From Candidatus Cloacimonetes bacterium HGW-Cloacimonetes-3 (GTDB lineage Bacteria > Cloacimonadota > Cloacimonadia > Cloacimonadales > Cloacimonadaceae): a stretch of 55,697 nucleotides of DNA. Below are positions 3,442-44,288 of the stretch, in pieces. A program made the position numbers and the translations under genes. Position 1 is the first letter of the stretch. The number at the start of each line of letters is the position of its first letter. Below the pieces are notes generated by a model that was not told the origin of the DNA, did not search any database, and saw only the letters and a list, made by a program, of their open reading frames with translations. Location: assembly GCA_002840645.1 (NCBI GenBank), contig PHBO01000010.1:124470-180166 (forward strand). Reading direction: 5' to 3'.

Positions 3442-3888
3442 TTACATCCCATTATCCAGCCTCACATAATCCTTCACTTCCTCCAGCAGCCCCGCTTCCA
3501 CCGCTCTTTTAATACTTATGCACGGCAGATCGAGAGTATAAATTTCTTCTTTGGTCAGCGTAGCAAGGTCTATCTCCGGCACCGCAGCGGCAAGCGCATA
3601 CATCAGATGCAGATAGCAATTGCTCCACGTCCAGATCTTCACTCCGCGGTTTTTGCCGGCAGTGGCGTAGAGGTAAGCATAAGTGCGGCAGTCATATTTG
3701 TAAGCATCCGACACCTTTATCCGGAACAGGTTCTGCGCCACGCTTCCCATCTTGTGGTTATTGTCCGTTAGGGTGGGATAAGTATATTTTCTGGCATACA
3801 TCTTATCTGCCAGGCGATTGTAGCAATACACCAGCTCCCCCGTTTTACCAGTGAGCGACGGCATCCCGAAATTCATTTTAACCTTCAT
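3442..3888 (-). CDS. Small hypothetical protein, paralogue of the 6100-6576 product
   Basis: This 148-residue protein has no signal peptide and no membrane segment. AGGAGG is well placed before the start. The N-terminal half shares a pattern with the product of 6100-6576: a TGKTGELVYCYN / SGKLGEMVFYNH segment, then a run of residues ending in YPTL, then a two-residue Asn-rich step and HKM / HLKM. About 15 residues later both have a D..TYA.Y segment. The C-terminal halves share a Trp-containing helix and an L.cl..ID.P..CI-type segment. The two genes are therefore paralogues, 2.2 kb apart in opposite orientations. The family is unknown to me and no function is proposed. Confidence 0.75.
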   Translation of the reverse strand: MKVKMNFGMPSLTGKTGELVYCYNRLADKMYARKYTYPTLTDNNHKMGSVAQNLFRIKVSDAYKYDCRTYAYLYATAGKNRGVKIWTWSNCYLHLMYALAAAVPEIDLATLTKEEIYTLDLPCISIKRAVEAGLLEEVKDYVRLDNGM

Positions 3889-6099: not shown

Positions 6100-6576
6100 A
6101 TGAGAGTAACGTTTATAAACGGGGTGAAGGCATATTCCGGTAAGTTGGGTGAGATGGTGTTTTATAATCATTATAACTACTTGTTGTGCCAGGTGCGGCA
6201 ATTCACTTACCCCACGCTGGGGGAGAATCATCTGAAGATGAAGGATATCTTCCTGCATCTGAATGAGTTGTATCTGGAGGCAAATGCGGATTTCCGGGAT
6301 GATTTGAAAACATACGCTCTGTATAACTCCAGGGAAAATGTGTCCCGCATCCCGTCTCTAAGGCATAAAATGCCGAATGCCAAGACCTTGTTTACCCAGT
6401 GCATGTGGAAATGGGCGAAGGAACACCCCGAAAGCGTAGATCTGAAGACGGTTACGCTTACCGATATGCTTGCGATAGATAGCCCGGTGTGCCGGGTGTG
6501 CACGTGCGTGAATGCGGGGTATATAAAGAAGGTGACAGGTTGGGAGAGATTGGATAAAATAATTTCCACACCGTAG
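6100..6576 (+). CDS. Small hypothetical protein, paralogue of the 3442-3888 product
   Basis: The 158-residue product has no signal peptide or membrane segment. It shares with the 3442-3888 product an N-terminal SGKLGEMVFYNHYN segment, the FTYPTLGENHLKM motif and a following D..TYALY helix. The C-terminal half is richer in Cys, with a CRVCTCVN cluster that the paralogue lacks, so possible metal binding would be specific to this copy. GCGAGGTGAG lies about 10 nt upstream of the ATG as a weak ribosome binding site. The stop codon falls beside a REP element (6571-6600). Function is unknown. Confidence 0.7.
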   Translation: MRVTFINGVKAYSGKLGEMVFYNHYNYLLCQVRQFTYPTLGENHLKMKDIFLHLNELYLEANADFRDDLKTYALYNSRENVSRIPSLRHKMPNAKTLFTQCMWKWAKEHPESVDLKTVTLTDMLAIDSPVCRVCTCVNAGYIKKVTGWERLDKIISTP

Positions 6577-30085: not shown

Positions 30086-30617
30086 TTTATCCCACTTATT
30101 TTGACTTACAACTGAAGCCGACCACCTGCTTCAGGATATTCTCCGGTTTCACAGGCTTCAGTTATGAGCTAAAATGAGGGAGCATAATAGTGAGAGTCTT
30201 ACCGCAGGTCACCTGATTATCCCGTGAGATTCCTCTGTTTAATTCTATAAATGCCGCGCTGAAGTTGGAGGATTTGCAGAACTTGTTTTATGCGGCATTT
30301 TTAAAGTCAAACGAAGGGTGGGTTTGCCGGGTTATGCGTCCTGTTTACAGGACACCAAAATGACAATTAGGGTGTAATTGGGACAAGATATTGCTGTGTG
30401 AATGTCTGTTTGATATAAATATGGAATATTTCTTTGCGTCCCAAGATACTGTAACGCAGCATTATGCACCACTCCAAAAAAGTATTTCGGGCAATCCGGC
30501 AAGTTTGGCACGCTACTTGCGTTTAGTAAAAGGGTGTCCCGCAGGGGATGCATTTATAGAGTGAACACAAAAAGTGAAACCCTAAAAAAAATAACCCCTA
30601 AAGAAAGGAGACTAATC
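30086..30617. other. Long upstream region of the pilin gene with hairpins
   Basis: No gene is visible. Inverted CTGAAGC/GCTTCAG segments occur at 30110-30162. A 9-bp stem (30249-30257 with 30292-30300) with a 34-nt loop and a TTTTT run could be a terminator or the end of a small RNA. The sigma-54 promoter of the pilin gene lies at 30506-30520. The region before it would hold sites for a sigma-54 activator, which I cannot identify. Confidence 0.5.
30506..30520 (+). promoter_or_regulatory. Sigma-54 promoter of the pilin gene
   Basis: TGGCAC, a 5-nt spacer and TTGC match the -24/-12 consensus, and the GG and GC elements are separated by the required 10 nt. The start site would be near 30532, about 86 nt before the pilin ATG. 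Pilin genes of Pseudomonas and Myxococcus also use sigma-54. Confidence 0.85.
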
Positions 30618-31049
30618 ATGGGAACCCAACAAATTCTTCTCATCGTACTGAGCGTAATCATCGTCGGTGTCGCAATCGCCGTCGGTATCAGCATGTTTAA
30701 CAGCCAGTCTTACAACAGCAACAAGACTGCTATCGCTTCCGATGCACAAAGTTTTGCAACCCAGGCTGTGCAGTATTACAAGACCCCTGAATCCCAGGGC
30801 GGCGCCGGCGGCAAAGCTGCAAACATGACTCAGACAAAAGTATCAGCATTCCTTAGCTTTGATCCCACCACTTTCAAAACATCAAATGAGAATGGCGGCT
30901 ATACCATCACAGCTACTGACTCTGTACATGTGGAAATCACCGGTGTTGGAACTGCCAAGAAGAGCAATAAGAACCCCCAGGTTATTACCACTGTAGCCCT
31001 TCCTGAAGGTACAGTTACTGCTGCTGCTTCTGATGTCGCAGCTCCTTAA
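30618..31049 (+). CDS. Major type IV pilin-like protein without leader
   Basis: The 143-residue product starts MGTQQILLIVLSVIIVGVAI, an uninterrupted hydrophobic helix as in mature type IV pilins, followed by a Ser/Thr/Gly-rich globular part. There is no positively charged leader and no G|F(T/S)LIE cleavage motif; position 5 is Gln instead of the usual Glu. The ATG at 30618 has AAAGGAGA upstream. A GTG at 30534 would add a 28-residue basic N-terminus ending in a Gly just before the helix, but it lies at the predicted transcript start with no ribosome binding site. The pilus assembly genes that follow, and the sigma-54 promoter, support a pilin role. Exact subunit status is inferred. Confidence 0.75.
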   Translation: MGTQQILLIVLSVIIVGVAIAVGISMFNSQSYNSNKTAIASDAQSFATQAVQYYKTPESQGGAGGKAANMTQTKVSAFLSFDPTTFKTSNENGGYTITATDSVHVEITGVGTAKKSNKNPQVITTVALPEGTVTAAASDVAAP

Positions 31050-31389
31050 TTATTGCACAGTTTAGTGTGTTAGCCTGAGTGAATCAGGTTTTACTTAGGA
31101 TTGGTCAAGATTTATCTTGACCAATCTTGGTATAAAGGAATATTAAGCTCTATAGGGTGTTAGGTGTGAATTTCGGGTGGCTGTAGCCATGTGGGGAATT
31201 TGTAAGGCGTTGATAGAAGTTAGCTTAACGGAATATTGGGAAGATGCTGCCATAGTTGTCGGCATCACCTGTGTTTCGCTTGGGATACGCCTCCAATAAT
31301 GGTTAATGTCACTTTGGGGTTGATGCAGTACAATGCTTTAAGATAGATAGAGTTTTGCACTACATCAGCTTATAGGATAAGGAGCACCG
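31050..31389. other. Gap between pilin and pilC with strong hairpin
   Basis: No gene is visible. A 13-bp perfect stem with a 2-nt loop (31099-31111 with 31114-31126) lies 50 nt after the pilin stop. It lacks a T tract, so it may be an mRNA-stabilising or processing structure that keeps pilin mRNA more abundant than the downstream genes. A weaker 7-bp hairpin lies at 31243-31266. Confidence 0.5.
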
Positions 31390-32730
31390 ATGGTAAAGGA
31401 ATACCGCTTCAAAGGCTATGGTCCGCAAGGCAAATTGGTGCAGGGGACTTTCATGGCTGAAAGTCCGAAAGCATCCAAAGAATATCTGAACAAGTTATCT
31501 CAGAAATTCCACCTCCGTATCAGCAGCCTTGAGAAGAAGCGGGATTGGCTTTACAAGGTTTATTCAGCCGGCAAAAAGAAACCATTCAGTGGCCGTCAAT
31601 CAGCATATAGCAAAGCCGAAGTAGCATCGGCATTAACGAAGATGGGCTATACAAAGTTTAGCATAAACCCCGTTCTCTTTGATCTGCCCATGAAACCCGG
31701 ACTTGCTGATATCATGATGTTCATCAAGCTATCCACAACAATGTTAAAAGACCGGATGAGCTTTGGTAAAATCCTGGAGATGCTTGCCGAAGAGCAAACC
31801 AATCGCACTTTGAAAGAGGCATTACAACAGATAGAAAGTCAGCTTAAGGGCGGTGCCGAGGGGCGAGAAGTGTTCATGCGCTTCGGGCATGTATTCGGCA
31901 AGTTTCCTGCCTTCATGCTGGGGCTGGCTACACGTAGCGGTAACATGGCAGACGTGTTTGAAGCAACCAGTAAGTTTATAGAACGCGATATGGAGATCAA
32001 AAAGAACATCAAGAAAGCTCTGATATCTCCCATGTTTGCCGTTTTCGCTACCATCGGAGCGGTAATGTATTATGTGATAGACATCTTCCCCGCCACGGCG
32101 GAGATGTTCCTGAAATATAACATGCCTCTCCCCCCCCTAACCAAGGGCACGCTTTCTGTAAGTGACTGGTTGGCGGTTTATTGGTGGACAATAGCACTGG
32201 CAATAGCAATACCTATTGTAATTGTCTGGCGATGGTGGCAAACCCCAAAGGGCAAGATATGGCGTGATTCACACATAATTAAACTGCCCATGGTGGGACA
32301 TTTGATTCACAAGTCCAGTATAGAAATATACTTCCGTGTTTTCGGCACCATTTATGCCGGTGCTGGTGATAATATCGAAACGATAAGAACCGCCGCCGAA
32401 GCCTGCCGTAATGCCTGGATGGAAGATAGAATTAAACGTGTTACGATACCTCTGATGCTTAAGGAAGGTGAAGCTTTCGTTCCTGCAATGGATGCAGCAG
32501 GCATCTTTACCCGAACTGCCCTTACCAGATTGCGCACCGGTCAGGAAACGGGTAACATCCTGCAAGCATCACAGCAGATAGCCACTTATTATGAAGCAGA
32601 GACAACATACAAAATGAATAACATGATTGAGTATATCCAAAGTATAGTCGGCTTGTTTATCTCCCTTGCCATAACATTCTTAACCGTGGTGTCAGCTGAG
32701 ATTGCCACTATCTCTCCTCCCACAATGTAG
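31390..32730 (+). CDS. pilC: Type IV pilus inner-membrane platform protein PilC/GspF
   Basis: The 446-residue integral membrane protein has an N-terminal cytoplasmic region (1-105) and two GspF domains (about 110-230 and 310-440), with three hydrophobic helices near 212-233, 255-278 and 415-438. Motifs LGLATRSGNMADVFEATSKF and the second-repeat LTRLRTGQETGNILQASQQI are typical. PilC anchors the assembly ATPases to the inner membrane and transmits their movement to pilin. GGAGCACCG precedes the start. It lies 8 nt from pilB and must be co-transcribed. Confidence 0.92.
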   Translation: MVKEYRFKGYGPQGKLVQGTFMAESPKASKEYLNKLSQKFHLRISSLEKKRDWLYKVYSAGKKKPFSGRQSAYSKAEVASALTKMGYTKFSINPVLFDLPMKPGLADIMMFIKLSTTMLKDRMSFGKILEMLAEEQTNRTLKEALQQIESQLKGGAEGREVFMRFGHVFGKFPAFMLGLATRSGNMADVFEATSKFIERDMEIKKNIKKALISPMFAVFATIGAVMYYVIDIFPATAEMFLKYNMPLPPLTKGTLSVSDWLAVYWWTIALAIAIPIVIVWRWWQTPKGKIWRDSHIIKLPMVGHLIHKSSIEIYFRVFGTIYAGAGDNIETIRTAAEACRNAWMEDRIKRVTIPLMLKEGEAFVPAMDAAGIFTRTALTRLRTGQETGNILQASQQIATYYEAETTYKMNNMIEYIQSIVGLFISLAITFLTVVSAEIATISPPTM

Positions 32731-32738
32731 CGTGCAAA

Positions 32739-34520
32739 ATGAGTAATCTCACCAAATACGCAAAATACCTGGTTGAAAAAGGCTATCTTGAGCACGATAT
32801 GGTGGAAAGCGCTAACCAGAAAATGCTGGAATTTGGAGAGAACTCTGCGGGTGCTCTGGCACGCTTGCTGGAAAGCGACTTCGCAGTCCCGCATGACAAA
32901 GTATTTGAAGCACTGGCAAAACACTATGCCTTCCCCCAGCATGATGTGGATGCCGAGCTTCTGGAGCATAAGCAGCTTGAGGCTTGTAAGGATATCCTAA
33001 ACAAGATACCTGAGGACTTGAAGAAGAAGCTTTTCTTTCACAAGATATTCCCCTACATGATTATCAACACAGATAGAGAAGTCCTGCAGGTTTTGGCTTC
33101 CGATCCCACCGATAAAGTTATCCAGGAAATTCCGGAACAAACCCAATACAAACGCATTGAAATATACTGGTCACACCTAAAAACCATAGAAAGCCTTATC
33201 GCCAAAATAGCACCGCAGAAGAACGAGTTCCTGGCACTACTGGAAGAAGCCGGACAGGTGCTAACCGATATAGATGACGGCAGCAGCGGCATGGAATTGA
33301 ACGAGGCTGCACTTGATGACGAGATAAACAAAAGCCTGTTGGTAAACCTCTTTGAAGGAGCTTTGATAGAAGCTGTGCACAAGGATGCCAGCGATATTCA
33401 CATCATCCCCGGCGGACGCAGCACAATAGATATTTATATCCGTGTGGACGGCAAGTTGCAGCTTTGGCACAGACAAGAGGGAACCGCTCCCGAAGCTCTT
33501 TCTGCCGTGGTGAAAGACCGCTCTATCGGGGTGGACAGGTTTGAGCGCGACACAGCTCAGGACGGCTTTGCGCAAAGGCTTATAGACGACCACCTTATCC
33601 GCTTCAGAATCTCCATTATCCCTATTGTCTCCTCCGAATATGACCGCCGCTTTGAGAGCATTGTTATCCGTGTTATAGACGACCGCAAGGTTATTACGGA
33701 CTTTCGCAAGCTTGGTTTCCAAACTCAGGCAGAGCAGGAATTCATTAAGTCTATCTCCACTTCCAAGGGTATCATTATCGTAACCGGTCCTACCGGAAGC
33801 GGGAAATCCACTACCCTGATGGCTGCTCTGCACCACGTGATAAACCCCACCGTGAATGTGCTTACCTGCGAAGACCCTGTGGAATATGTAATCAGGGGTG
33901 CACGCCAACTTAAGATTGGGCATAAGATGAGCTTTGATCTTGCCATTCGCTCTATTCTGCGCCACGACCCGGATATCGTGATGGTGGGTGAGATACGCGA
34001 TAAAATAACTGCGGATATAGCCGTGAAGCTTGCCAATACCGGGCATCTAACCTTCTCCACCTTGCATACTAACGATGCTCCTTCCGCTGTTACCCGTTTG
34101 TATAAGATGGGTATAGAGACCTTCCTGTTGGCGTATTCCATAAATATAATCATCGCCCAGCGTTTGGTACGTAAGCTATGCCAGAAATGCCGCCGTCCCT
34201 TAGCCAAAGAACATTGGCCTGCTGCCCTGGCAATCGGCTTAACTGAAGAAGAGCTGCAAAGCGGTACGATATTCGAGCCCGTGGGCTGTAACAAGTGTCA
34301 TGAAGGGTATAAGGGCAGAGTTAATATCGCCGAAGCATTGTTCTTCTACCCCGAAGTACGTAATGAAATTGTGAAATCAGTGAATGATATAGATGAAGAG
34401 CGTATCCGTGCCATTGCGGAAAAGAAAGGCATGCTATCCATGCGGCGAAGCGGTGTGGAACGGATGCGGGAAGGGTTAACCGATCTAACCGAAGTACTTT
34501 ATGCCACAGCGGAGGATTAG
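32739..34520 (+). CDS. pilB: Type IV pilus extension ATPase PilB/GspE
   Basis: The 593-residue hexameric ATPase drives pilus extension. An N-terminal MshEN-like region (about 1-150) precedes the catalytic half. The Walker A motif GPTGSGKSTT is at about 350-359, the Walker B region ILRHDPDIVMVGEIRD near 407, and STLHTNDAP near 439. Four cysteines (CQKC near 480 and CNKC near 517) form the zinc site of the PilB/GspE class, which PilT lacks. No strong ribosome binding site is visible, and the gene starts 8 nt after pilC. Confidence 0.95.
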   Translation: MSNLTKYAKYLVEKGYLEHDMVESANQKMLEFGENSAGALARLLESDFAVPHDKVFEALAKHYAFPQHDVDAELLEHKQLEACKDILNKIPEDLKKKLFFHKIFPYMIINTDREVLQVLASDPTDKVIQEIPEQTQYKRIEIYWSHLKTIESLIAKIAPQKNEFLALLEEAGQVLTDIDDGSSGMELNEAALDDEINKSLLVNLFEGALIEAVHKDASDIHIIPGGRSTIDIYIRVDGKLQLWHRQEGTAPEALSAVVKDRSIGVDRFERDTAQDGFAQRLIDDHLIRFRISIIPIVSSEYDRRFESIVIRVIDDRKVITDFRKLGFQTQAEQEFIKSISTSKGIIIVTGPTGSGKSTTLMAALHHVINPTVNVLTCEDPVEYVIRGARQLKIGHKMSFDLAIRSILRHDPDIVMVGEIRDKITADIAVKLANTGHLTFSTLHTNDAPSAVTRLYKMGIETFLLAYSINIIIAQRLVRKLCQKCRRPLAKEHWPAALAIGLTEEELQSGTIFEPVGCNKCHEGYKGRVNIAEALFFYPEVRNEIVKSVNDIDEERIRAIAEKKGMLSMRRSGVERMREGLTDLTEVLYATAED

Positions 34521-34949
34521 ATGAATCTAATGGAAATGTTGCTTGCCCTATTAGCGGTGGTGTTATTCACCAGCGTAGCCGCTAATTATAATCGGAAGAT
34601 GCTGGATCAGAACGATTATCTGATAAACGCCACTCAATACGTGCAGGCTTCTCAATTGTGTCACACGGTTTTGGATGAGATCGATGCCAAGCTGTTTGCC
34701 AAGATGATCGCTTTCTTCAGCGTGAAAACCACCTATGCCAACGTGAATAGAACTATCGATCTTGCCTTCCCCGGTGATGTGTACAACTTAAACATCCGCG
34801 CCGTAGATTGTGATTCACTCGGCATCCCCCTTAGTACTCCTGTTGCAAACAACATCTGGGTGAGAGTGACAGTTACTGCCAATACTAAGGGCTTAAGAGT
34901 TCCGGCAACCCTGCAACGGATTTATACCAAAACATATCTGAATCTATAA
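34521..34949 (+). CDS. Minor pilin-like protein in mature form
   Basis: The 142-residue product starts MNLMEMLLALLAVVLFTSVA. This matches a mature pilin helix (FTLIELLxAL), with Met in place of the first aromatic and Glu at position 5, but with no leader. The preceding in-frame triplet is the pilB stop codon, so no leader can be encoded in this frame. The globular part has one Cys pair (residues about 47 and 95). It begins exactly after pilB, with the AGCGGAGGATTAG stretch as ribosome binding site. A role as pseudopilin or pilus-initiating minor pilin is inferred from helix and context. Confidence 0.75.
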   Translation: MNLMEMLLALLAVVLFTSVAANYNRKMLDQNDYLINATQYVQASQLCHTVLDEIDAKLFAKMIAFFSVKTTYANVNRTIDLAFPGDVYNLNIRAVDCDSLGIPLSTPVANNIWVRVTVTANTKGLRVPATLQRIYTKTYLNL

Positions 34950-35521
34950 TGAGCTTTATTATTGATCTCATCGGCGCAGCTCTCATCGGCAGCATGCTAA
35001 TGCTGATGATGATAACCTTCCAGTTTCAGATGCAGGCTGCAACGGACCGCGCCTTATATGCCATAAACATGGTAGATCACATGGATCAAGCTGCCACAAG
35101 GATGAACAACGTTATAGCCCTGGCAGGCGTGGGCCTATCCCCCGCAACTGCCGTTAAATACGCAACCGCAGATTCTTTGGTTTTTTATACATACTGGGAT
35201 TTCCAGAATGATACCATAACCGGCAGCTCCAAAACTTTATCGATTAAGCTCTCCAATGTCCCAAGCCCCTACGGAACAGCGGTGGTTATCCGCCAGAATG
35301 GCGTTCCGCTTACAGATTTGGGATACCTGTTCTGGATAAATGAGCTAAAGTTTCGATACTACACAAAAGGTGATGCGCTTACAACCACTGCTTCATTGGT
35401 TAGGAGCGCAGAAGTGCGTGTATCCTTTTTCAGGAATTCTCCCCGGATTGGTGGCAAGCCATTAGTCACCAAGCTTCAGTTCAAGTGTTACTTTATGAAT
35501 GCCTATATGCAAGGGGCATAA
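34949..35521 (+). CDS. Minor pilin-like protein
   Basis: The 190-residue product has an N-terminal helix (MSFIIDLIGAALIGSMLMLM) that spans the membrane and resembles a mature minor pilin of the PilW/GspJ kind, with an acidic residue (Asp) at position 6. It lacks a leader and cleavage motif. The globular domain has the LRYYYK-like segment INELKFRYYTKG typical of GspJ/PilW proteins. Its start overlaps the stop of the previous gene (TAATG), so translation is coupled. No strong ribosome binding site is present. Confidence 0.72.
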   Translation: MSFIIDLIGAALIGSMLMLMMITFQFQMQAATDRALYAINMVDHMDQAATRMNNVIALAGVGLSPATAVKYATADSLVFYTYWDFQNDTITGSSKTLSIKLSNVPSPYGTAVVIRQNGVPLTDLGYLFWINELKFRYYTKGDALTTTASLVRSAEVRVSFFRNSPRIGGKPLVTKLQFKCYFMNAYMQGA

Positions 35522-35530
35522 GGAGACATT

Positions 35531-36721
35531 ATGGGACGGACAATGTTATTGGTAACCATTCTGATGACTACTATATATGCCGGAATAATGATTACCCTAC
35601 AGCGCCACATCCTTTCGCTACCGAACATCATCTCCCGTAATATTCTTACCAAGCAAGCCGAAAGCGTTTCGGACTATGCGCTGCGTAATGCCGTGCAGAA
35701 CTCTATCGCATACGGGCAGCAAGCAGGTGAATCATCCCTGATTAAGTGGAACGAGTACTACAGCAATTTTAACATCCAGAATTGTCATATAGACAGCATA
35801 AACTACACGTTTGTTACCGGAACAACCAACAGCTACCGCGCTATAAGCCATGTGAGTGGCAACCTGATGGGTAAGACAGTAAAATACAGGGCGGAAGTAG
35901 CCTTCAGCTTCCCCGTGGTGGCTATACTCGATATGGACTACTGCATTTATCTGGAAATGAATCAGCCCGCATTTAACCCCAGCCATCAATGGAACGAAGT
36001 GATAGACACCTCTGATAACGGCAATGATGCAAACTACGTTGGCAACGTGGATACCCGCCCGCATGGCTCCGGGGTGGATGGCTGGAAATGCGCCAGCTTT
36101 AACGAATCCAGCGGAGGTTACACCGGTTATATCTGGCATGATGGCAACAGCAGCATGATAGTAGCTTCCAATTTCTCCATTATTGCCTTTGCAAAGATAA
36201 ATGACCGTGCACCCCAAGGTCCGCTGGTATGGTTGCCCCCCGACCCCGCCGATCCGGCTGTATCAGGCGTAGGCTGGGGTAATGTGCGCAGGAAACCTAC
36301 CGGAGCAATCTGGTACTATAACAATGTCGTATATTTTACTGCAACGACTGTGGATGGGATAACTGTCCAGACCTCCGCAGCATTTAATCCCGATGCCAAA
36401 TGGCCTCATAATAAAGACGCTTGGTATCACTTTGCCATGACCTATAACAAAGGGCAAGTGAAGGGATACATCAATGGCGTGCTTAAAGGAACAGCACAAA
36501 ACACTCTTTACCCTTGGTACAAACCTTCTGCCATCCGGAACAAGGGCATCTATCTGGGCAGAGAGTATTATGGCACTCCCCAAGCAGGGGATACATATCA
36601 CTATTTTGATGGAATGATGGATCAAGTGGGGCTGGTACCCAGGACTCTAACTGATGCCGAGATTGCTACCTACGTAAGCCAGGTTCTTACACCTACAACC
36701 GTACAATATATAAGAGATTAG
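35531..36721 (+). CDS. Membrane-anchored minor pilin-like protein with LamG lectin domain
   Basis: The 396-residue product has an N-terminal helix (TMLLVTILMTTIYAGIMITL) without leader, a short alpha/beta region (about 30-135) and a concanavalin-like LamG/pentraxin domain (about 140-390). Features of that domain are DTSDNGNDANYVG near the start, WYHFAMTYNKGQVKGYINGV in the middle and FDGMMDQVGLVPRTLTDAEI at the end. Such domains bind sugars or proteins and often carry calcium. A pilin helix fused to a lectin domain suggests a tip adhesin or an attachment subunit, which is inference. AAGGAGAC precedes the ATG. It is the third of three minor-pilin-like genes between pilB and the sensor gene. 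Confidence 0.82.
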   Translation: MGRTMLLVTILMTTIYAGIMITLQRHILSLPNIISRNILTKQAESVSDYALRNAVQNSIAYGQQAGESSLIKWNEYYSNFNIQNCHIDSINYTFVTGTTNSYRAISHVSGNLMGKTVKYRAEVAFSFPVVAILDMDYCIYLEMNQPAFNPSHQWNEVIDTSDNGNDANYVGNVDTRPHGSGVDGWKCASFNESSGGYTGYIWHDGNSSMIVASNFSIIAFAKINDRAPQGPLVWLPPDPADPAVSGVGWGNVRRKPTGAIWYYNNVVYFTATTVDGITVQTSAAFNPDAKWPHNKDAWYHFAMTYNKGQVKGYINGVLKGTAQNTLYPWYKPSAIRNKGIYLGREYYGTPQAGDTYHYFDGMMDQVGLVPRTLTDAEIATYVSQVLTPTTVQYIRD

Positions 36722-36736
36722 CCTTGGAGGCTTAGA

Positions 36737-37729
36737 ATGGATAACGAGAAATTAAAGCTTCTGTCCTGGTGGGCAATGATCCGCTGGTTCATGGTGGTAG
36801 TGCTCTTTTCAATAGGGCTGCTGCACATCAGTTTCAATGAGACCATGGTGCAAACCATCCTGTTTTTCGGCGTGTTTGCCGGAATTGTGGCACTAAATCT
36901 GCTGTTCCAGGTGCAATCCCATGCATCCAAGCAATGGGTAATAGTGTTTCAGGTAATTCTGGATATAGTGTTTGCCACTATTGTAGTGCATCTCACCGGC
37001 GGGCTTAACAGCTTCTTTGTGTGGGTTTACCTGATAGGGGTTATCACCGCTGCGCTCACGATTAAGCAGAATGGTGGTTTGCTTGCAGGACTTACGGGGA
37101 GCTTTTCTCTTTTAATCCTGATTCTTTTATATAAGAATGGGGTACTTGTTCCCACAGAATCGTCCAATATGGATGTAGCAGGTTCCACAGTATATATCCT
37201 GTCCTACACTGGGCTTTTCTGCGGAGTGGCATTAATTGCCAACTACCTCTCCGATCAGCTCTTGTATCAACGAAATCTGGAAAAAGAACTGTCTTCTACT
37301 TTATCCAAACTTGCCTCTCTGGAAGATTTACAGCAGCAAATGTCCGAAATACTCCCTATCCTGAAGGATGTGGGGCATATAGATCATGATATCAATACTC
37401 CGCTATGTGTGATAACCTTATCACTGGGCAGGGTTAAACGTTATGCCAATGAATACCAGAACGAAGGATTGAATAAGTCCAACAACGAGATTATGGAAGC
37501 TGTGAATAAAATCAGCATCATCCTGAAACGTTTGCAACCTATGAAACAACACCCTTTGTTGGAATATTACAACACAAGCGAAACCAGGGTTAAACCGGAG
37601 AATATCACAGACAGCTTTCAAGAGAAACCGAATAGTATCAAGACACCATTCTCTGAGGCTCATCCTGAGAACAGTACAAGCGGAACGCTCGCACCTCCGG
37701 ATAATAGCCCTTCCAAGGAGGTTCCATGA
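36737..37729 (+). CDS. PilS-like membrane sensor lacking the ATPase domain
   Basis: The 330-residue product has six hydrophobic segments (about 10-190), as in PilS, then a coiled helix and a histidine-kinase dimerisation segment HIDHDINTPLCVITLSLGRV, with the likely phosphoacceptor His near residue 217. After this there is only a disordered Pro/Ser/Asn-rich tail of about 70 residues. The N, G1, F and G2 boxes of the kinase ATPase domain are absent. The reading frame shows no interruption and overlaps the next gene (ATGA), so a truncation by mutation seems unlikely. It could be a pseudokinase scaffold or be phosphorylated in trans. TTGGAGG precedes the start. Confidence 0.82.
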   Translation: MDNEKLKLLSWWAMIRWFMVVVLFSIGLLHISFNETMVQTILFFGVFAGIVALNLLFQVQSHASKQWVIVFQVILDIVFATIVVHLTGGLNSFFVWVYLIGVITAALTIKQNGGLLAGLTGSFSLLILILLYKNGVLVPTESSNMDVAGSTVYILSYTGLFCGVALIANYLSDQLLYQRNLEKELSSTLSKLASLEDLQQQMSEILPILKDVGHIDHDINTPLCVITLSLGRVKRYANEYQNEGLNKSNNEIMEAVNKISIILKRLQPMKQHPLLEYYNTSETRVKPENITDSFQEKPNSIKTPFSEAHPENSTSGTLAPPDNSPSKEVP

Positions 37730-38592
37730 ATAATAAAAAGATAATGGTCGTGGATGATGAACAAAACATCCGCGAGATAATCAGTGAATTCCTGCAAGAA
37801 GTCGGCTATACCGTCGCGGTAGCTGTGGACGGCTTGGATGCATTGGACAAGGTTGCATACGAGCAATATGATCTTTACATAATAGATGTATATATGCCTC
37901 GCATGGGTGGTTTGGATTTAATCTCCAAACTAAAAGAGCTGCAACCCCTGGCGGTAATCATCGTAACCACCGGATATTCCAGCATAGATATTGCTATCAA
38001 GGCTATCCGCATGGGAGCATATCACTATCTCACCAAGCCCATCCAGGCGGAAGAGCTGCTGAAAGTGGTGGAATCCGGGCTTAAACATGCTTCCGATTTG
38101 GGTGATAGTTCCGGTGCTTCGGTGGATTCCGTTACGCCTCGAATAGAAAAACAGAGCGAATTGCTGCTGCTGCGCGGATTCACCTACGAGCAAGCCAAGG
38201 ACTTTAAAAGTATGGGCACAGTGGTGGAATACCAGTATGGCGATAGCATTTCTCTGGATGAAGAGCGTGGTTCCATGATCTTTGTGGAGAATGGACGCCT
38301 GAATGTGTACCATAACGAAACGGTGGTGGAGACCCTTACTGCGGGCGACGTTTGGGGCGAAGAAACCTTCCTGAATCCCAGTGCGGCTTTCACCAATCTT
38401 AAGGCTCAAAGTGAAGTGCATGTCCGCCATTTCAAACGCAAAAAGATTATGGAGTTCTTCACCTATAATGACGAAACCTTAACTAAGCGATATATGATAA
38501 ACCTGATTCAATGCATGTACATGAAATGGAGACGTTCCATCTTCCGCATTGGCTTGTACAGCGGCTTTAACAACGAAAAGCCGGCGTCATGA
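37726..38592 (+). CDS. Response regulator with cNMP-binding-like output domain
   Basis: The 288-residue product has a receiver domain (1-120) with D10, D11, D54, T81 and K104 all in place. A second domain (about 145-245) has the cyclic-nucleotide-binding beta-roll pattern (YGDSISLDEERGSMIFVENGRLNVY, GDVWGEETFL). The phosphate-binding cassette keeps the GE pair, but the usual Arg is not visible (AAFTN), so nucleotide binding is doubtful. There is no helix-turn-helix and no AAA+ domain, so it is not a PilR-type sigma-54 activator. It starts inside the stop of the ATPase-less sensor, implying paired action on pilus function. Confidence 0.85.
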   Translation: MNNKKIMVVDDEQNIREIISEFLQEVGYTVAVAVDGLDALDKVAYEQYDLYIIDVYMPRMGGLDLISKLKELQPLAVIIVTTGYSSIDIAIKAIRMGAYHYLTKPIQAEELLKVVESGLKHASDLGDSSGASVDSVTPRIEKQSELLLLRGFTYEQAKDFKSMGTVVEYQYGDSISLDEERGSMIFVENGRLNVYHNETVVETLTAGDVWGEETFLNPSAAFTNLKAQSEVHVRHFKRKKIMEFFTYNDETLTKRYMINLIQCMYMKWRRSIFRIGLYSGFNNEKPAS

Positions 38593-38620
38593 TTTTTGCA
38601 GCTTCCTTGCTTGAATTACG

Positions 38621-38673
38621 GTATCATTACGGATGCATTACGGATGGCATCCGTAATGCATCCGTAATGATAC
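38621..38673. repeat. Perfect 26-bp palindrome with 11-bp internal repeats
   Basis: Arms 38621-38646 and 38648-38673 are perfect inverted repeats with a single central base. Each arm has two tandem copies of CATTACGGATG (11 bp). It lies 28 nt after the regulator stop. Confidence 0.95.
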
Positions 38674-38716
38674 TGCAATGCTTGCAAGAAAGTTCTGCGG
38701 TAAAGCAAGTTACAAA

Positions 38717-38747
38717 GAGGCTGGATACCCGCCTCCGCGGGTATGAC
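38717..38747. repeat. REP family A copy 2
   Basis: GAGGCTGGA, then TACCCGC-CTCC-GCGGGTA and TGAC. The stem differs in compensating bases from the copies at 5982 and 25906, which supports selection on the hairpin. Confidence 0.85.
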
Positions 38748-38768
38748 AATATGTGCTTAGGCAAATGT

Positions 38769-38887
38769 GAGATTATGGAGCACATGAGATTATGGAGCAC
38801 ATGAGATTATGGAGCACATGAGATTATGGAGCATATGAGATTATGGAGCACATGTGATTATGGAGCACATGTGATTATGGAGTATAA
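38769..38887 (+). repeat. Seven 17-bp tandem units ending at the pilT start
   Basis: Units of GAGATTATGGAGCACAT start at 38769, 38786, 38803, 38820, 38837, 38854 and 38871, with few substitutions. The GTG start of pilT (38888) is exactly the first codon of what would be the eighth unit. The TGGAG of the last unit (38878-38882) is the ribosome binding site. Confidence 0.95.
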
Positions 38888-40102
38888 GTGAGTTTAAGTT
38901 TTGTAGCCCAACTAATAGCCGCTATCCCGGAAAATTTCACGGGGGTGGAGCAATGCACCGTTATCGACCAGTGGTTAACCGACCACCCGGATAAAGAAGC
39001 TGAATGCCGTGAAATCCTAACCGAATGGCTGATGAAAATGAGAGACCTACGCGCCTCGGATATAGATTTTGGTGGTCCCGGTTGTGAAGGGCAAGTTTGG
39101 ATACGAGTTTATGGAGCCAAGAAACCCGTAGCCTCGTTAGGACATTTTTCTCATCAGGAAACCACAGCCATCGTGCTAAGCTGGCTCAGCCCCTCGCAGC
39201 GACAAAGGCTTTTCAGCCGCAAGAGCGTGGATTTCTCTCTCACGTTTCCCCTTCCTCCCCCGGCAAGGGAAGCCCGCTTCCGTGGTTCTACCTACTTTGA
39301 CCGTGGCTATCTGGGCACCAACTTTCGCCGTATTAACGACACGCTTTATACGATGGAAGGCTTGGGAATACCTAATCCTGTAGCTCTGAGAATGAACCTG
39401 AAGCACGAAAAAACAGGTTTAATTCTTATAACCGGTATCACCGGCAGCGGTAAATCTACCACTTTGGACGCCATTATTGACATGAACAATCGGGATAACA
39501 GCGCTCACATAGTTATTATCGGGCACCCCATAGAATATGTGCACGAATCCAAGACAAGCCTGGTGAGGCACAGGGAAGTTGGCTCTGATGTGCTTAGCTT
39601 CGAAAGTGGCGCTGTGGAAGCTTTGCGTCAGGACCCGGATATAATCGTGGTGGGCGAAATGCGGGACGCTTCTACTATTGCCACCGTGCTGGAAATCACC
39701 GATAGCGGACACAAAGCCATTACAACCCTGCATACCAGCTCTGCCATCGATAGCATACACCGCATCATTGCAGAATTCCCCCCTGAAGAACAGGAACGGG
39801 TTCGGAACCGTCTTGCCGATGTGTTATCGGTTACGATGAGCCAGAAACTGGTTCCCACTATTGATGGTAAACTGGTGATGGCAAAGGAAATCCTCTGCAC
39901 AGACTCCAGTGTTCAGGCTGCCATAAGAAACAAAAACATCGGCGAAATCTACCAAATGATGGTGGAAGGAAAGCGCTATGGCATGTGCACTTTGGAACAA
40001 GATTTGCGTGAACTGCAAAGGAAAGGATTTATTACCCAGCAAACAGCAGTGAATTATGCTAATAACAAGAAACGCATGGTACAGCTGTTTGGTATGTCTT
40101 GA
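38888..40102 (+). CDS. pilT: Pilus retraction ATPase PilT-like
   Basis: The 404-residue ATPase is expected to drive pilus retraction and hence twitching motility. Walker A is GITGSGKSTT (183-192), with Ile in place of the usual Pro. DPDIIVVGEMRD forms the Walker B region and TTLHTSSAIDSIHRII the His box. There are no zinc-site cysteine pairs, which separates it from PilB. The N-terminal 110 residues are longer than usual. The GTG start and its ribosome binding site come from the tandem array. The AIRNxxI-like segment (AAIRNKNIGEIYQMM) near the C-terminus is the PilT AIRNLIRE region in altered form. Confidence 0.9.
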   Translation: MSLSFVAQLIAAIPENFTGVEQCTVIDQWLTDHPDKEAECREILTEWLMKMRDLRASDIDFGGPGCEGQVWIRVYGAKKPVASLGHFSHQETTAIVLSWLSPSQRQRLFSRKSVDFSLTFPLPPPAREARFRGSTYFDRGYLGTNFRRINDTLYTMEGLGIPNPVALRMNLKHEKTGLILITGITGSGKSTTLDAIIDMNNRDNSAHIVIIGHPIEYVHESKTSLVRHREVGSDVLSFESGAVEALRQDPDIIVVGEMRDASTIATVLEITDSGHKAITTLHTSSAIDSIHRIIAEFPPEEQERVRNRLADVLSVTMSQKLVPTIDGKLVMAKEILCTDSSVQAAIRNKNIGEIYQMMVEGKRYGMCTLEQDLRELQRKGFITQQTAVNYANNKKRMVQLFGMS

Positions 40103-40150
40103 TAAAGTTAGACGTTAAGCGTTAGACGTTAATAGTTAATAGGAATAGAT

Positions 40151-42304
40151 ATGAAGAAACACCCAAAACAGGCATTCGGTATATTCCACGACGGTCTGGC
40201 GGTGCGCATGGTGCACCTCAGCCGTGAAGGCAGCGAGATATTCCTGCATGCCGTGGATCATACCGAACTGGATCGCTACTGGTATAAGATACTGGAAGAC
40301 CCCTCCGTATCTATGGTAGATACCAAAACAAACGAAGATAAGGTACCCACCAAGGGGGAAGTCCAGATAGATGAGTTTGACAACGATTATGTTGCCAATT
40401 TCCAGCTACAGCCTTCAGAGAGGATGCTGGCATCGTTTGATCTTGCCCGTGGGGTTATTGCCATAAATGTGTATGAAGATAATATCCTGAAGGATAACTT
40501 CGGAGCTGTTTCTAAGAAGGAAATGGATGCTTTTGTAAAGTCCAAAATAGCTCCCAAAGTTATCAAATCCGGAGAATGGCAATCCTCCATCATTACTATG
40601 GGTGATAGAAAGCAACAATGGCTGCATAATGGCAGTAATCGCTTGCTGGATATGCTTCGGGACTACCAAAAAACAAATCACCTGACCCTGTTTTTCCAGA
40701 TTGCTGATGCAAATGATGTAGCTCTTACGGATTATTTCCGCATTGCCTACGAACAGGTTCTGGATAAAGATACTCTCCTTGTTTATTTAGGACAGGAATA
40801 CCGCAAAGCATTTCTGTTCCGGGATGGGCAATGGGTGGATACTCTTAAACTACAGATTACGCAGAGCATCCCGGAACCGGAAGTGATAAGCTCTAAGCTG
40901 GCACTGGCGATAGACAGCGCACAGCTTAAGGAACCGGAGTCGATTGTCATATGCGGAGACATGGCTAATATCGAGCTGATGGATTACATAAAATCTCAGT
41001 TCCCTGCCGCAAGTGTGGAGTTACTTGGCTATAATAACCTGGTGATATCGACTCAGGATTCAGATACATTTGACGTTCAAACCCTTACTCAATTCACCAT
41101 CCCCATAGCTCTGGCATACAAGGCTTTATTCCCTGAAGATGGTCGCTTCACTCCCAGTAACTTCCTGCCCTCCCGTATAATTGAAGGTCAGAAGGTGTTT
41201 AAGATTGCTTGGCATGGGTTTGTCGTGCTGTTTATCATTTTTGCCATAGCACTTATTTTTACCAATTCGATTATGAAAGAGACACTACTAATCCGGCAGG
41301 AAAAAGCTATAAAAAGAGATCTGGAATTCCGCCTTGAAGTTAGGCGTAAAGAAGCGGAAGAGATACAGAAAATACGCAATGAGTTGGATGCTCAGGAGGC
41401 AAACATTCAGGTGTTAAAAGACCTGCTGGCGAAAAAGAATCCCTGGTCTGAAACCCTGAATATCGCTAACCGTGTGTTTGCCGGACAACCGCTTAGCTGG
41501 CTTACCAACCTGAAGCTGGATAAAGGCATGCTAAACCTTAGCGGGGTAACCACCCGTCGGGCAGCAGTAGTAGAATTTGCTAACGCTTTCCCGGGTAGCC
41601 AGATACGCAAGGTTGCCTATTCAAAGATAAGAGAAAACCCGGTATGGGCTTTCGAAATGGTCTCGCCCCTTCCCGAAGTTGATTGGGTAGGCGAAATCCA
41701 ACGGGATGTGGAAGCCCTGCTGCTTTTAAGACAAAGCGTAGGCGAAGAAAAAGCTAAGGAAGCAGCCAAAGCAGAACAATTAGCTCCAGGTGGCCCTGCA
41801 AGGCTTATAGCACCCCAAAAACCACCAAGCACCAAGATTACCGATAAAAAGGGATGGGTAATGCTACCCTTGCTTCCACAAAGCAGTTGCCCCACACCCG
41901 CCGATGAACTTCTTAGCGGAGATGGATACGAGATAAAGGAGTACTACAGCTTTGTATTATCTGCTAACCGCGGGAATATCTGGGAATACCGCGACATGGG
42001 AACCCGCTTTATAAACAGGCATCCTGCCAGTGAGCTGTTACCTGCTGTGCGGTGGTGGATGAGTTACAGATTGTATCTGGACAAAGAATATAGCCTTGCC
42101 ACCCAGTTTCTTGAGCCGATGCTGAGAAATACTGATAGCTACTATCCATATGCACTGCTGTTGCAAGCACGGAATCAGTATGCCAAAGGGAATGCTGACT
42201 ATATCGATTATTACAACATGTTAAAAAACGACTATGGACGTAATGCCATTATGGCACAGGTAAATGCCGATCTGGCTTTCATCGGCAAAGGAGGTGGTAA
42301 ATGA
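40151..42304 (+). CDS. PilM-PilN fusion with TPR-like C-terminus
   Basis: The 717-residue product has an N-terminal cytoplasmic part (1-350) resembling the actin-like PilM, then one transmembrane helix (about 352-374), a coiled coil (375-425) and a PilN-like domain (430-510; LSWLTNLKLDKGMLNLSGVT). A Pro/Ala-rich linker (near 540-560) leads to a C-terminal helical part (600-717) with repeat-like helices (DKEYSLATQFLEPMLRNTDS). PilM and PilN normally are separate proteins that bind each other, so a fusion is plausible. The actin-like ATP-binding motifs are weak and not certain. AGGAATAG precedes the ATG. It overlaps the next gene by four bases. Confidence 0.78.
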   Translation: MKKHPKQAFGIFHDGLAVRMVHLSREGSEIFLHAVDHTELDRYWYKILEDPSVSMVDTKTNEDKVPTKGEVQIDEFDNDYVANFQLQPSERMLASFDLARGVIAINVYEDNILKDNFGAVSKKEMDAFVKSKIAPKVIKSGEWQSSIITMGDRKQQWLHNGSNRLLDMLRDYQKTNHLTLFFQIADANDVALTDYFRIAYEQVLDKDTLLVYLGQEYRKAFLFRDGQWVDTLKLQITQSIPEPEVISSKLALAIDSAQLKEPESIVICGDMANIELMDYIKSQFPAASVELLGYNNLVISTQDSDTFDVQTLTQFTIPIALAYKALFPEDGRFTPSNFLPSRIIEGQKVFKIAWHGFVVLFIIFAIALIFTNSIMKETLLIRQEKAIKRDLEFRLEVRRKEAEEIQKIRNELDAQEANIQVLKDLLAKKNPWSETLNIANRVFAGQPLSWLTNLKLDKGMLNLSGVTTRRAAVVEFANAFPGSQIRKVAYSKIRENPVWAFEMVSPLPEVDWVGEIQRDVEALLLLRQSVGEEKAKEAAKAEQLAPGGPARLIAPQKPPSTKITDKKGWVMLPLLPQSSCPTPADELLSGDGYEIKEYYSFVLSANRGNIWEYRDMGTRFINRHPASELLPAVRWWMSYRLYLDKEYSLATQFLEPMLRNTDSYYPYALLLQARNQYAKGNADYIDYYNMLKNDYGRNAIMAQVNADLAFIGKGGGK

Positions 42305-43164
42305 CAAACACCACCAGAAATACTGTTGTCCTAATTGCCTTACTTATTGCTTTTGGGGGAGTTTCCCTATCCTTCTACCGCAAGCTTCACAAGGAATCTG
42401 TAGCTCTGGTAACAGAGAATGAAAAGACTTCTAAGAAGATAGCTGTGCTGGAAAGGCAAATAAGCAATATAGACTCCCTTAAGTTAGAGTTTGAAATCCG
42501 AAAAGCGATGGTGGCAGAACAAAGCAAAGTGATATTGGCAAACGATAACCCAACTATCACTTATCAATACCTGCTTCGCTTGCTTTCCTGGATGAAGCGG
42601 AGTACTATATTTAACTTTGCCATGTCCGATAATGGTAAGAAGGAAACCACCTGGAATGAGTATGTTGTCTCCGGGCGCTCGAACTATCGTGATGTGGTGG
42701 AACTAACCCGGAATATTGAACACCAGAGAGCTGTGCTCACCATAGAAGAACTGGCAATAGGCTCTGATAACGTGGCTAATAGTGATAGTGTCTCATATTC
42801 TATAGTTTTTAGAACCCACTTCAATGCCGGTGGTGCCGAGATAGAAGGACTAAAACACAAGAAGATGCCTACCGGGAATACTTTCTACCAGCTGTTCCGT
42901 TCCCGTGTGAACCCCATTCCCACTCTTGATGATGATATTGATCCCACTCTGGTAAGAATTGATCAGGCTACTCTAATTGGTATCACTGATAATCGCATCT
43001 TCCTGCGAGACAATCAGGGCGTTATTAGAATTCTTGCGCCACGGGATAAGGTGGCATACGGTTACTTATACGCCATTGATGCCAGAAACTCCAAAGCAGT
43101 GTTTTGGATAGATAAATATGGTATCCCGGAAGAACAAACTCTGTTTATAACGAATATGAAATGA
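42301..43164 (+). CDS. PilO-PilP-like fusion
   Basis: The 287-residue product has one N-terminal membrane helix (8-25), a coiled coil (30-75) and a PilO-like ferredoxin-like domain (85-180). Its C-terminal domain (about 190-287) resembles PilP or the GspC HR domain (RIDQATLIGITDNRIFLRDN). It would bridge the inner-membrane subcomplex and the secretin. The start overlaps the stop of the PilM-PilN gene (ATGA) and the stop overlaps the pilQ region. The assignment rests on order (M-N-O-P-Q) and predicted topology more than on sequence motifs. Confidence 0.72.
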   Translation: MTNTTRNTVVLIALLIAFGGVSLSFYRKLHKESVALVTENEKTSKKIAVLERQISNIDSLKLEFEIRKAMVAEQSKVILANDNPTITYQYLLRLLSWMKRSTIFNFAMSDNGKKETTWNEYVVSGRSNYRDVVELTRNIEHQRAVLTIEELAIGSDNVANSDSVSYSIVFRTHFNAGGAEIEGLKHKKMPTGNTFYQLFRSRVNPIPTLDDDIDPTLVRIDQATLIGITDNRIFLRDNQGVIRILAPRDKVAYGYLYAIDARNSKAVFWIDKYGIPEEQTLFITNMK

Positions 43165-43172
43165 GGTTCATT

Positions 43173-44288
43173 ATGAAATATATTCCCTTTCTCCTTAGCT
43201 TGCTCCTGTTATTGTCGTGCTTCAACATGGAAGCACAAGTTACCCAGATTCCGGAGGAAACCGTAAGTATCAGTGCAAACACTCACATAAATGAGGCAGC
43301 TCTGATCCTGGAAACCTTCACTTTGAAGCAATCCAGGAGGAAACTGATAAACCTCTCCAGCTACAATGGGCCCATCAACATCCCCATAAACAATCTTCAA
43401 TGGGAACGAGCATTGGATCTTATCTTACTTCAGAACCACCTGGTACGGAAAGACAATGTGGGATACATATCAATTGAAGACATCCCCAAACCCGTTGTTA
43501 CTGTGGCAGAACCAATAGACCCGCTTGCCGGCGAAGCCATGTCCAAACAGGTTCGGATTAAAGCAGTAGCCATGCTTGCAGACAGGTCTTACATCCGTAA
43601 TATGGGGATAGACTGGTCATCCGTGTTAAATGGTAAGATTACTGTGAATGCAGGTTTTGCAGGAGCTACTCAGGTGGTGTCCCCAATGACGCTTAATGCT
43701 TCCGGGATAGCAGATATTGGCAAGTATAAGGTTGATATAAGCACTGCCATAAAGACTATTGAATCTAACCAAAAGGGTAATATCATCGCCCAGCCTACTG
43801 TTTTGGTATCTTCCGGCAAACAAGGTTTCATCCAGGTTGGACAGGATATTTCCGTAAAAATTATGGACGATGCCGGCAATGCCACGGATACCTTCTTTGC
43901 AACTGGTATCATAATGGATGTTTCACCCACAATTGTACAAGTCAAAGGAAAAGAAGTTATCCATCTGAAGATGAGTATAGAGCGCTCCAGCGGAGTTCCC
44001 AGCGCAATATCCACTATAATCACCAAAAGCAAATCTACTACCGAGCTGGTTCTGTTTAATAATGAAGAAACCGTTATAGCAGGTTTGTTTGACACAGACG
44101 AAACCAAAGCCAGAAGCGGTATCCCAATTCTGAAAGACCTTCCTTGGTGGGTGTTTGGGATTCGCTATTTGGCTGGTTATGACAGCTACGAGAAAAAGGA
44201 AAGAGAACTGGTGATAACCTTGCAGGCTGAGATTGTGGACAGCGCTTATGATAGATTAATGAGATCTACGCAGGATGCAGATAAATAG
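43173..44288 (+). CDS. pilQ: Type IV pilus secretin PilQ-like, short
   Basis: The secretin forms the outer-membrane pore for the pilus. This protein has 371 residues, shorter than typical PilQ (700 or more). It has a signal peptide, one small N domain (about 30-105) and the secretin domain (about 125-365) with IIAQPTVLVSSGKQGFIQVGQDI and VIAGLFDTDETKARSGIPILKDLPWWVFGIRY. AMIN domains and repeated N domains are absent. I chose the ATG at 43173, with GAGG upstream at good spacing; the one at 43161 overlaps the previous stop. The missing N domains suggest that a partner such as the PilO-PilP fusion contacts the pore directly. Confidence 0.88.
   Translation: MKYIPFLLSLLLLLSCFNMEAQVTQIPEETVSISANTHINEAALILETFTLKQSRRKLINLSSYNGPINIPINNLQWERALDLILLQNHLVRKDNVGYISIEDIPKPVVTVAEPIDPLAGEAMSKQVRIKAVAMLADRSYIRNMGIDWSSVLNGKITVNAGFAGATQVVSPMTLNASGIADIGKYKVDISTAIKTIESNQKGNIIAQPTVLVSSGKQGFIQVGQDISVKIMDDAGNATDTFFATGIIMDVSPTIVQVKGKEVIHLKMSIERSSGVPSAISTIITKSKSTTELVLFNNEETVIAGLFDTDETKARSGIPILKDLPWWVFGIRYLAGYDSYEKKERELVITLQAEIVDSAYDRLMRSTQDADK

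Follow-up and report, generated by a model that had tools for sequence, protein, structure and literature searches.

A type IVa-like pilus operon of Cloacimonadota and related bacteria whose pilins appear to be made without prepilin leaders

The 55,697-nucleotide stretch of Candidatus Cloacimonetes bacterium HGW-Cloacimonetes-3 shown above, referred to here as the window and belonging to a genome of 2.68 Mb, carries a type IVa-like pil operon at positions 30618-44288 of the (+) strand. The question raised by this locus is how a type IV filament could be built from subunits that have no prepilin leader. A class III signal peptide, which is a leader ending in Gly followed by a hydrophobic tract with Glu5 (PMC4471445), and a dedicated peptidase are listed among the core features of type IV filaments (PMC4471445, PMC6668835). 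No class III signal peptide is found in the four pilin-like subunits of the window or in their relatives. We consider the operon to encode a type IVa-related machine with major and minor pilins made in the mature register without such a leader, so that a prepilin peptidase is not needed, and we give this reading a probability of about 0.82. Leaderless pilins are not peculiar to the locus in the window, as they form a family that extends across the Fibrobacterota-Chlorobiota-Bacteroidota (FCB) group. The leaderless major pilin is named PilA* throughout. The original prediction, made from the letters of the window, dealt with positions 30618-36721, and the operon continues past these coordinates to approximately 44288. 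The subunit genes and the ribosome binding site of the first are as follows.

30605-30610, + strand: Shine-Dalgarno sequence AAGGAG of the PilA* gene, 7 nt before the ATG, with similar spacing in most relatives.
30618-31049, + strand: PilA*, the leaderless major pilin (MGTQQILLIVLSVIIVG), with a predicted helix at residues 2-55 followed by beta-sheet.
34521-34949, + strand: minor-pilin-like protein 1, leaderless (MNLMEMLLALLAVV), beginning MNLMEMLLALL with Glu at residue 5; the gene abuts the pilB stop, the homologues are leaderless, and a helix at residues 3-59 plus beta strands are predicted.
34949-35521, + strand: minor-pilin-like protein 2, leaderless by its sequence and homologues (MSFIIDLIGAALIG), with an acidic residue at position 6.
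35531-36721, + strand: minor-pilin-like protein 3, leaderless (MGRTMLLVTILM), with a C-terminal LamG/ConA-like domain (PF13385, E 4e-12); its homologues start MGR or MGK.

All four genes begin directly at a membrane helix, as originally predicted, and the G/FxxxE cleavage site is missing from each of the four proteins. A leader on the product at 34521 had been called impossible, and this is confirmed by the in-frame triplet before its ATG, which is the pilB stop TAG. The strong ribosome binding site noted before the ATG of PilA* is also present. The frame of the window's PilA* is open further upstream, where a GTG at 30534 would give a basic extension of 28 residues that superficially resembles a leader; this start was rejected because it is not conserved among relatives. 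In one relative (G007), whose PilA* gene is 93% identical, the frame is closed by a stop codon 15 codons upstream and offers no other start. Nearly all relatives use the ATG that follows AAGGAG, and in Cloacimonadota this element is normally spaced from the ATG of MGTQQ.

The N-terminus of the major pilin in FCB relatives reads MG[QT]QQ[LI]LLIVL. A pattern scan of GTDB genome contigs returned at least 116 stretches, with Ignavibacteria, Calditrichota, KSB1, Zixibacteria, Latescibacterota, Marinimicrobia and Cloacimonadota among the matches listed, and 91 genes were read from 80 of these stretches. The upstream in-frame stop lies at a median distance of 5 codons in these 91 PilA* genes, 87 of which have no in-frame ATG, GTG or TTG upstream, and a Shine-Dalgarno core is found at normal spacing in 75. 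No K, R, D, E or H occurs within residues 2-24 in any of the 91. Because M1, G2, Q4, Q5 and part of the hydrophobic residues were prescribed by the scan pattern, their conservation has to be taken from sets collected by homology; in the less biased Cloacimonadota set obtained in this way, G2 is present in 64/68 PilA* sequences and Q5 in 65/68. Position 5 of minor protein 1 is Glu, Asp or Gln in 19/21 members of its Cloacimonadota homology set. In other groups, 18 genomes, most of them lacking PilD, have homologues of this protein that are leaderless and begin MNTGQ or similar. The ATG start is conserved across phyla, and a conserved upstream start with a leader was looked for in the relatives and does not exist. 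The idea that the filament is built from unprocessed or differently processed subunits is supported by this conservation and by the distribution of the peptidase described below.

It had also been pointed out that the window has no PilD gene. This is true, and no dedicated prepilin peptidase is encoded at the locus, but the observation fails as evidence: a genome-wide search for pilD identified one intact PilD (249 aa) on another contig (C24), and because of this its absence from the window carries no weight. Contig C13 of the same genome holds an additional, canonical cluster, which encodes GFTLIE prepilins together with PilM, PilN, PilO, PilQ and its own PilB and PilC and plausibly uses the PilD of this genome. 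Within Cloacimonadota, PilA* is found in 88/125 genomes and PilD in 102/125, and co-occurrence is uninformative here because most genomes have both.

Outside this phylum, PilD is found in 9/50 genomes with PilA*. The Ignavibacteria class (294 genomes) contains 156 genomes with PilA*, 14 with PilD and 20 with canonical N_methyl prepilins. Each of the 14 PilD genomes also carries PilA*, and PilA* occurs without PilD in 142 of its 156 genomes. N_methyl prepilins are present in 13/14 PilD-positive versus 7/280 PilD-negative genomes of this class (Fisher p 7e-17), and PilD therefore tracks the canonical prepilins. Draft quality does not explain the missing PilD, because the same method finds it in 82% of Cloacimonadota genomes; the same Pfam search found PilD in 12/14 control genomes. 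The Pfam model finds no PilD in the apparently single-contig genomes G144, G284, G345, G154 and G162, each of which has exactly one PilC gene, and in the stretches read from single-contig genomes the lone PilC adjoins PilA* or sits within a few kb of it. A PilD protein query against single-contig Ignavibacteria gave no match or chance matches, with internal stops or about 30 residues covered. For many genomes, single-contig ones among them, no type IV filament system other than that of PilA* was found and PilD is missing; PilD cannot be a requirement in the lineages without it. Most PilA* genomes of the Ignavibacteria class, single-contig ones included, lack a prepilin peptidase, which is the second support for subunits that are unprocessed or differently processed.

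One member of these lineages has been described before as having a partial pilus system. The genome paper of Melioribacter roseus reported pilT, pilQ, pilB and pilC but found no pilA or pilD, and its authors regarded the set as incomplete (PMC3534657). This set shares with the PilA* loci the presence of pilT, pilQ, pilB and pilC and the missing pilD. The difference is that the set was taken as incomplete, whereas in a genome labelled Melioribacter roseus PilA* is encoded directly beside pilC and pilB: two PilA* genes directly precede PilC-PilB-PilT-PilM/N-PilO, and no PilD was found in this genome. PilA* is likely the missing pilin of Melioribacter roseus.

The operon in the window encodes, in order, PilA*, PilC, PilB, the three minor-pilin-like proteins, a PilS-like sensor, a response regulator, PilT, a PilM/N-like protein, a PilO-like protein and a secretin. 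The genes for the machine and its putative regulators are as follows.

31390-32730, + strand: PilC/GspF inner-membrane platform protein (PF00482, E 2e-27; NCBIfam PilC/GspF, 1e-37).
32739-34520, + strand: PilB assembly ATPase (PF00437, E 5e-95; TIGR02538, E 1e-117; solved PilB 3jc8, E 4e-77).
36737-37729, + strand: PilS-like sensor with six transmembrane segments, apparently without the kinase ATPase domain (PF25323, E 5e-7).
37726-38592, + strand: response regulator with a cyclic-nucleotide-binding domain (PF00072, PF00027).
38888-40102, + strand: PilT-family retraction ATPase (TIGR01420 over the full model at 316.5 bits, just below the curated cut-off of 319.1).
40151-42304, + strand: PilM/PilN-like protein, assigned from its place in the operon and a weak match to PilN (PF05137, E 0.1), with an order kept across phyla.
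42301-43164, + strand: PilO-like small membrane protein, assigned by position.
43161-44288, + strand: short secretin of the PilQ type (PF00263, E 6e-26; TIGR02515, E 4e-22).

The gene order of the operon is conserved across Cloacimonadota, and PilA* adjoins PilC/PilB/PilT in Ignavibacteria, Calditrichota, KSB1 and Zixibacteria. The machinery features of type IVa pili (T4aP) found here are a PilB/GspE-family ATPase, a polytopic PilC/GspF protein, PilT and a secretin. The PilB sequence is complete and has solved PilB structures among its matches. In a quickly built PilB tree, in which some long branches meet, the PilB proteins of leaderless loci form a group of their own, separated at full SH-aLRT support from the canonical PilB that the same genomes encode. 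The PilS-like sensor at 36737-37729 matches HisKA weakly and lacks a HATPase domain, and it recurs in Cloacimonadota operons.

AlphaFold (67 sequences) predicts PilA* as one helix at residues 2-55 followed by antiparallel strands with a predicted local distance difference test score (pLDDT) of 92.8, and a similar but less confident model was obtained for minor protein 1 (pLDDT 84.8). PilA* does not match any Pfam or NCBIfam family above cut-off, and phmmer of PilA* against the PDB gave no relevant match. We infer from its LamG/ConA-like domain that minor-pilin-like protein 3 is a candidate tip adhesin.

Several further PilA* genes were observed. The genome of the window has a second, solitary paralogue (MGTQQIMVLVIGVIVVG) at L039:380-763 (contig C19), away from any pil operon. 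One stretch (L042:5747-15958, G119:C134) holds nine PilA* paralogues upstream of PilC-PilB, and the genome concerned (95% complete, 8% contamination) has 15 PilA* copies and no PilD match. PilA* also appears on contigs labelled Deltaproteobacteria (L172), Ectothiorhodospiraceae (L184) and Kerfeldbacteria (L192). These are probably mis-binned or mislabelled, possibly the result of transfer, and are not used as a sign of spread beyond the FCB group. On the first of these contigs (L172:4121-6316), leaderless minor proteins 1-3 are clustered between PilA* genes without PilB or PilC, which suggests that these proteins need not be encoded together with the machine. A small protein family of about 150 aa with an N-terminal SG/TGK.GE..Y-like motif has several copies scattered in the genome of the window, at 3442-3888 (-), 6100-6576 (+), L041:2524-2967 and L041:3343-3807.

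FCB bacteria probably possess a second, ancient route to type IV pili, in which extruded and retractable filaments would be made of pilins that are never cleaved or N-methylated by a prepilin peptidase. The nascent pilins would be inserted co-translationally in an N-in/C-out orientation directly through the signal recognition particle and Sec or through YidC. The N-terminus packed in the filament core would then be deformylated Met, or Gly2 after methionine aminopeptidase. Counting Met as residue 1, Gln5 of PilA*, and Glu5 or Gln5 of minor protein 1, may stand in place of the canonical Glu5, and in the core this initiator-derived N-terminus together with the uncharged Gln4/Gln5 would replace N-methyl-Phe1/Glu5. 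PilB and PilC would extrude the filament through the secretin and PilT would retract it, with the three minor proteins forming a tip complex that carries the LamG adhesin domain outside.

A number of points weigh against a leaderless, peptidase-independent pilus. Neither a filament, nor expression, nor an N-terminal peptide has been observed. PilA* lacks a positively charged side chain at its N-terminus, an unusual situation for an N-in orientation. PilD is usual in Cloacimonadota, and judging from the genomes, processing by PilD is possible there. Most of the loci come from draft metagenome assemblies. The PilM, PilN and PilO assignments are weak: the order is correct, but the hidden Markov model matches are poor. 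A Foldseek search of the PilA* and minor protein 1 models against the PDB gave no significant match, with type IV pilin 7o5y listed at E 0.5-1 at best, and the pilin fold therefore rests on the order of secondary structure elements.

It is unlikely that the operon instead encodes the pseudopilus of a type II-like secretion machine, with leaderless pilins and a filament confined to the periplasm. The operon contains a PilT-family ATPase, its secretin scores closer to PilQ, and PilA* has been multiplied into arrays in some genomes. PilB is nearer to type IV-A PilB than to GspE (394 versus 356 bits), although the GspE and GspF models score well too. The minor proteins could correspond to GspI/J/K by order and size, and the lack of any filament seen so far would agree with a periplasmic structure. 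No Pfam match to GspC, GspL or GspM was found among the window proteins scanned, and a genome-wide search for them was not made.

There is still less to suggest that a different peptidase or N-terminal modifying enzyme substitutes for PilD. Such an enzyme would have no leader to remove, and no other peptidase gene was found accompanying the operon in PilD-less genomes. Methionine aminopeptidase is an enzyme expected, from established knowledge, to act on Met-Gly.

An ultra-short Met-Gly leader, with PilD where present cutting after Gly2 as in canonical prepilins, is very improbable. Known leaders are 6-26 residues long (PMC4471445), and cleavage at this position would place Leu, Ile or Met at +5. 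The strong conservation of Gly2 in PilA* and in minor protein 3 fits such a leader, as does the presence of PilD in the genome of the window and in most Cloacimonadota, but MG is kept in the 142 Ignavibacteria-class genomes that have PilA* and no PilD, and position 2 of minor protein 1 is mostly Asn. The idea of ordinary prepilins with a leader translated from an unrecognised upstream start is hardly credible: it can point to the GTG 28 codons before the window's PilA* and its basic stretch, and appears largely contradicted by comparative sequence data, since in-frame stops in relatives lie mostly 0-17 codons upstream with no start codon between, the gene of minor protein 1 directly follows the pilB stop, and the Shine-Dalgarno sequence is positioned for the ATG.

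If the leaderless reading is true, the leader, the interaction of Glu5 with the N-terminus and N-methylation are not mechanistically required for type IV filaments, and the 'incomplete' pilus systems without pilA and pilD reported in these bacteria are explained. Leaderless subunits contradict the near-universal rule of prepilin processing. PilA* is invisible to standard pilin models because it belongs to no Pfam or NCBIfam family, and many environmental FCB genomes probably encode pili that have gone unnoticed, among them genomes of bacteria whose interspecies electron transfer has been linked to pili (PMC13082233). A search of the open-access literature returned nothing relevant on leaderless pilins or a missing peptidase.

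Among known systems, T4aP share with the PilA* locus PilB, PilC, PilT, a PilQ-type secretin and putative PilM/N/O-like proteins within a single operon, a major pilin of about 130-150 aa with a long N-terminal helix and beta-sheet, which are predicted for PilA*, and three minor proteins. The PilA* locus differs in that its subunits have no class III leader or Gly-Phe cleavage site, PilA* has Gln5 for Glu5, and many host genomes are without a prepilin peptidase. The type II secretion pseudopilus (GspG-K) has a similar GspE/F-like ATPase and platform, a secretin and pseudopilin-like minor proteins of which the third is large, whereas the PilA* locus has PilT and subunits without leaders. MSH-type pili are also encoded by a locus without a peptidase gene, and their host genomes hold the peptidase of another system that MSH pili possibly use (PMC6668835); in many PilA* hosts, unlike these, the peptidase is missing genome-wide and the pilins have no leader. 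The machinery is homologous to that of T4aP and probably T4aP-like in its working, and the system should best be described as a distinct leaderless variant.

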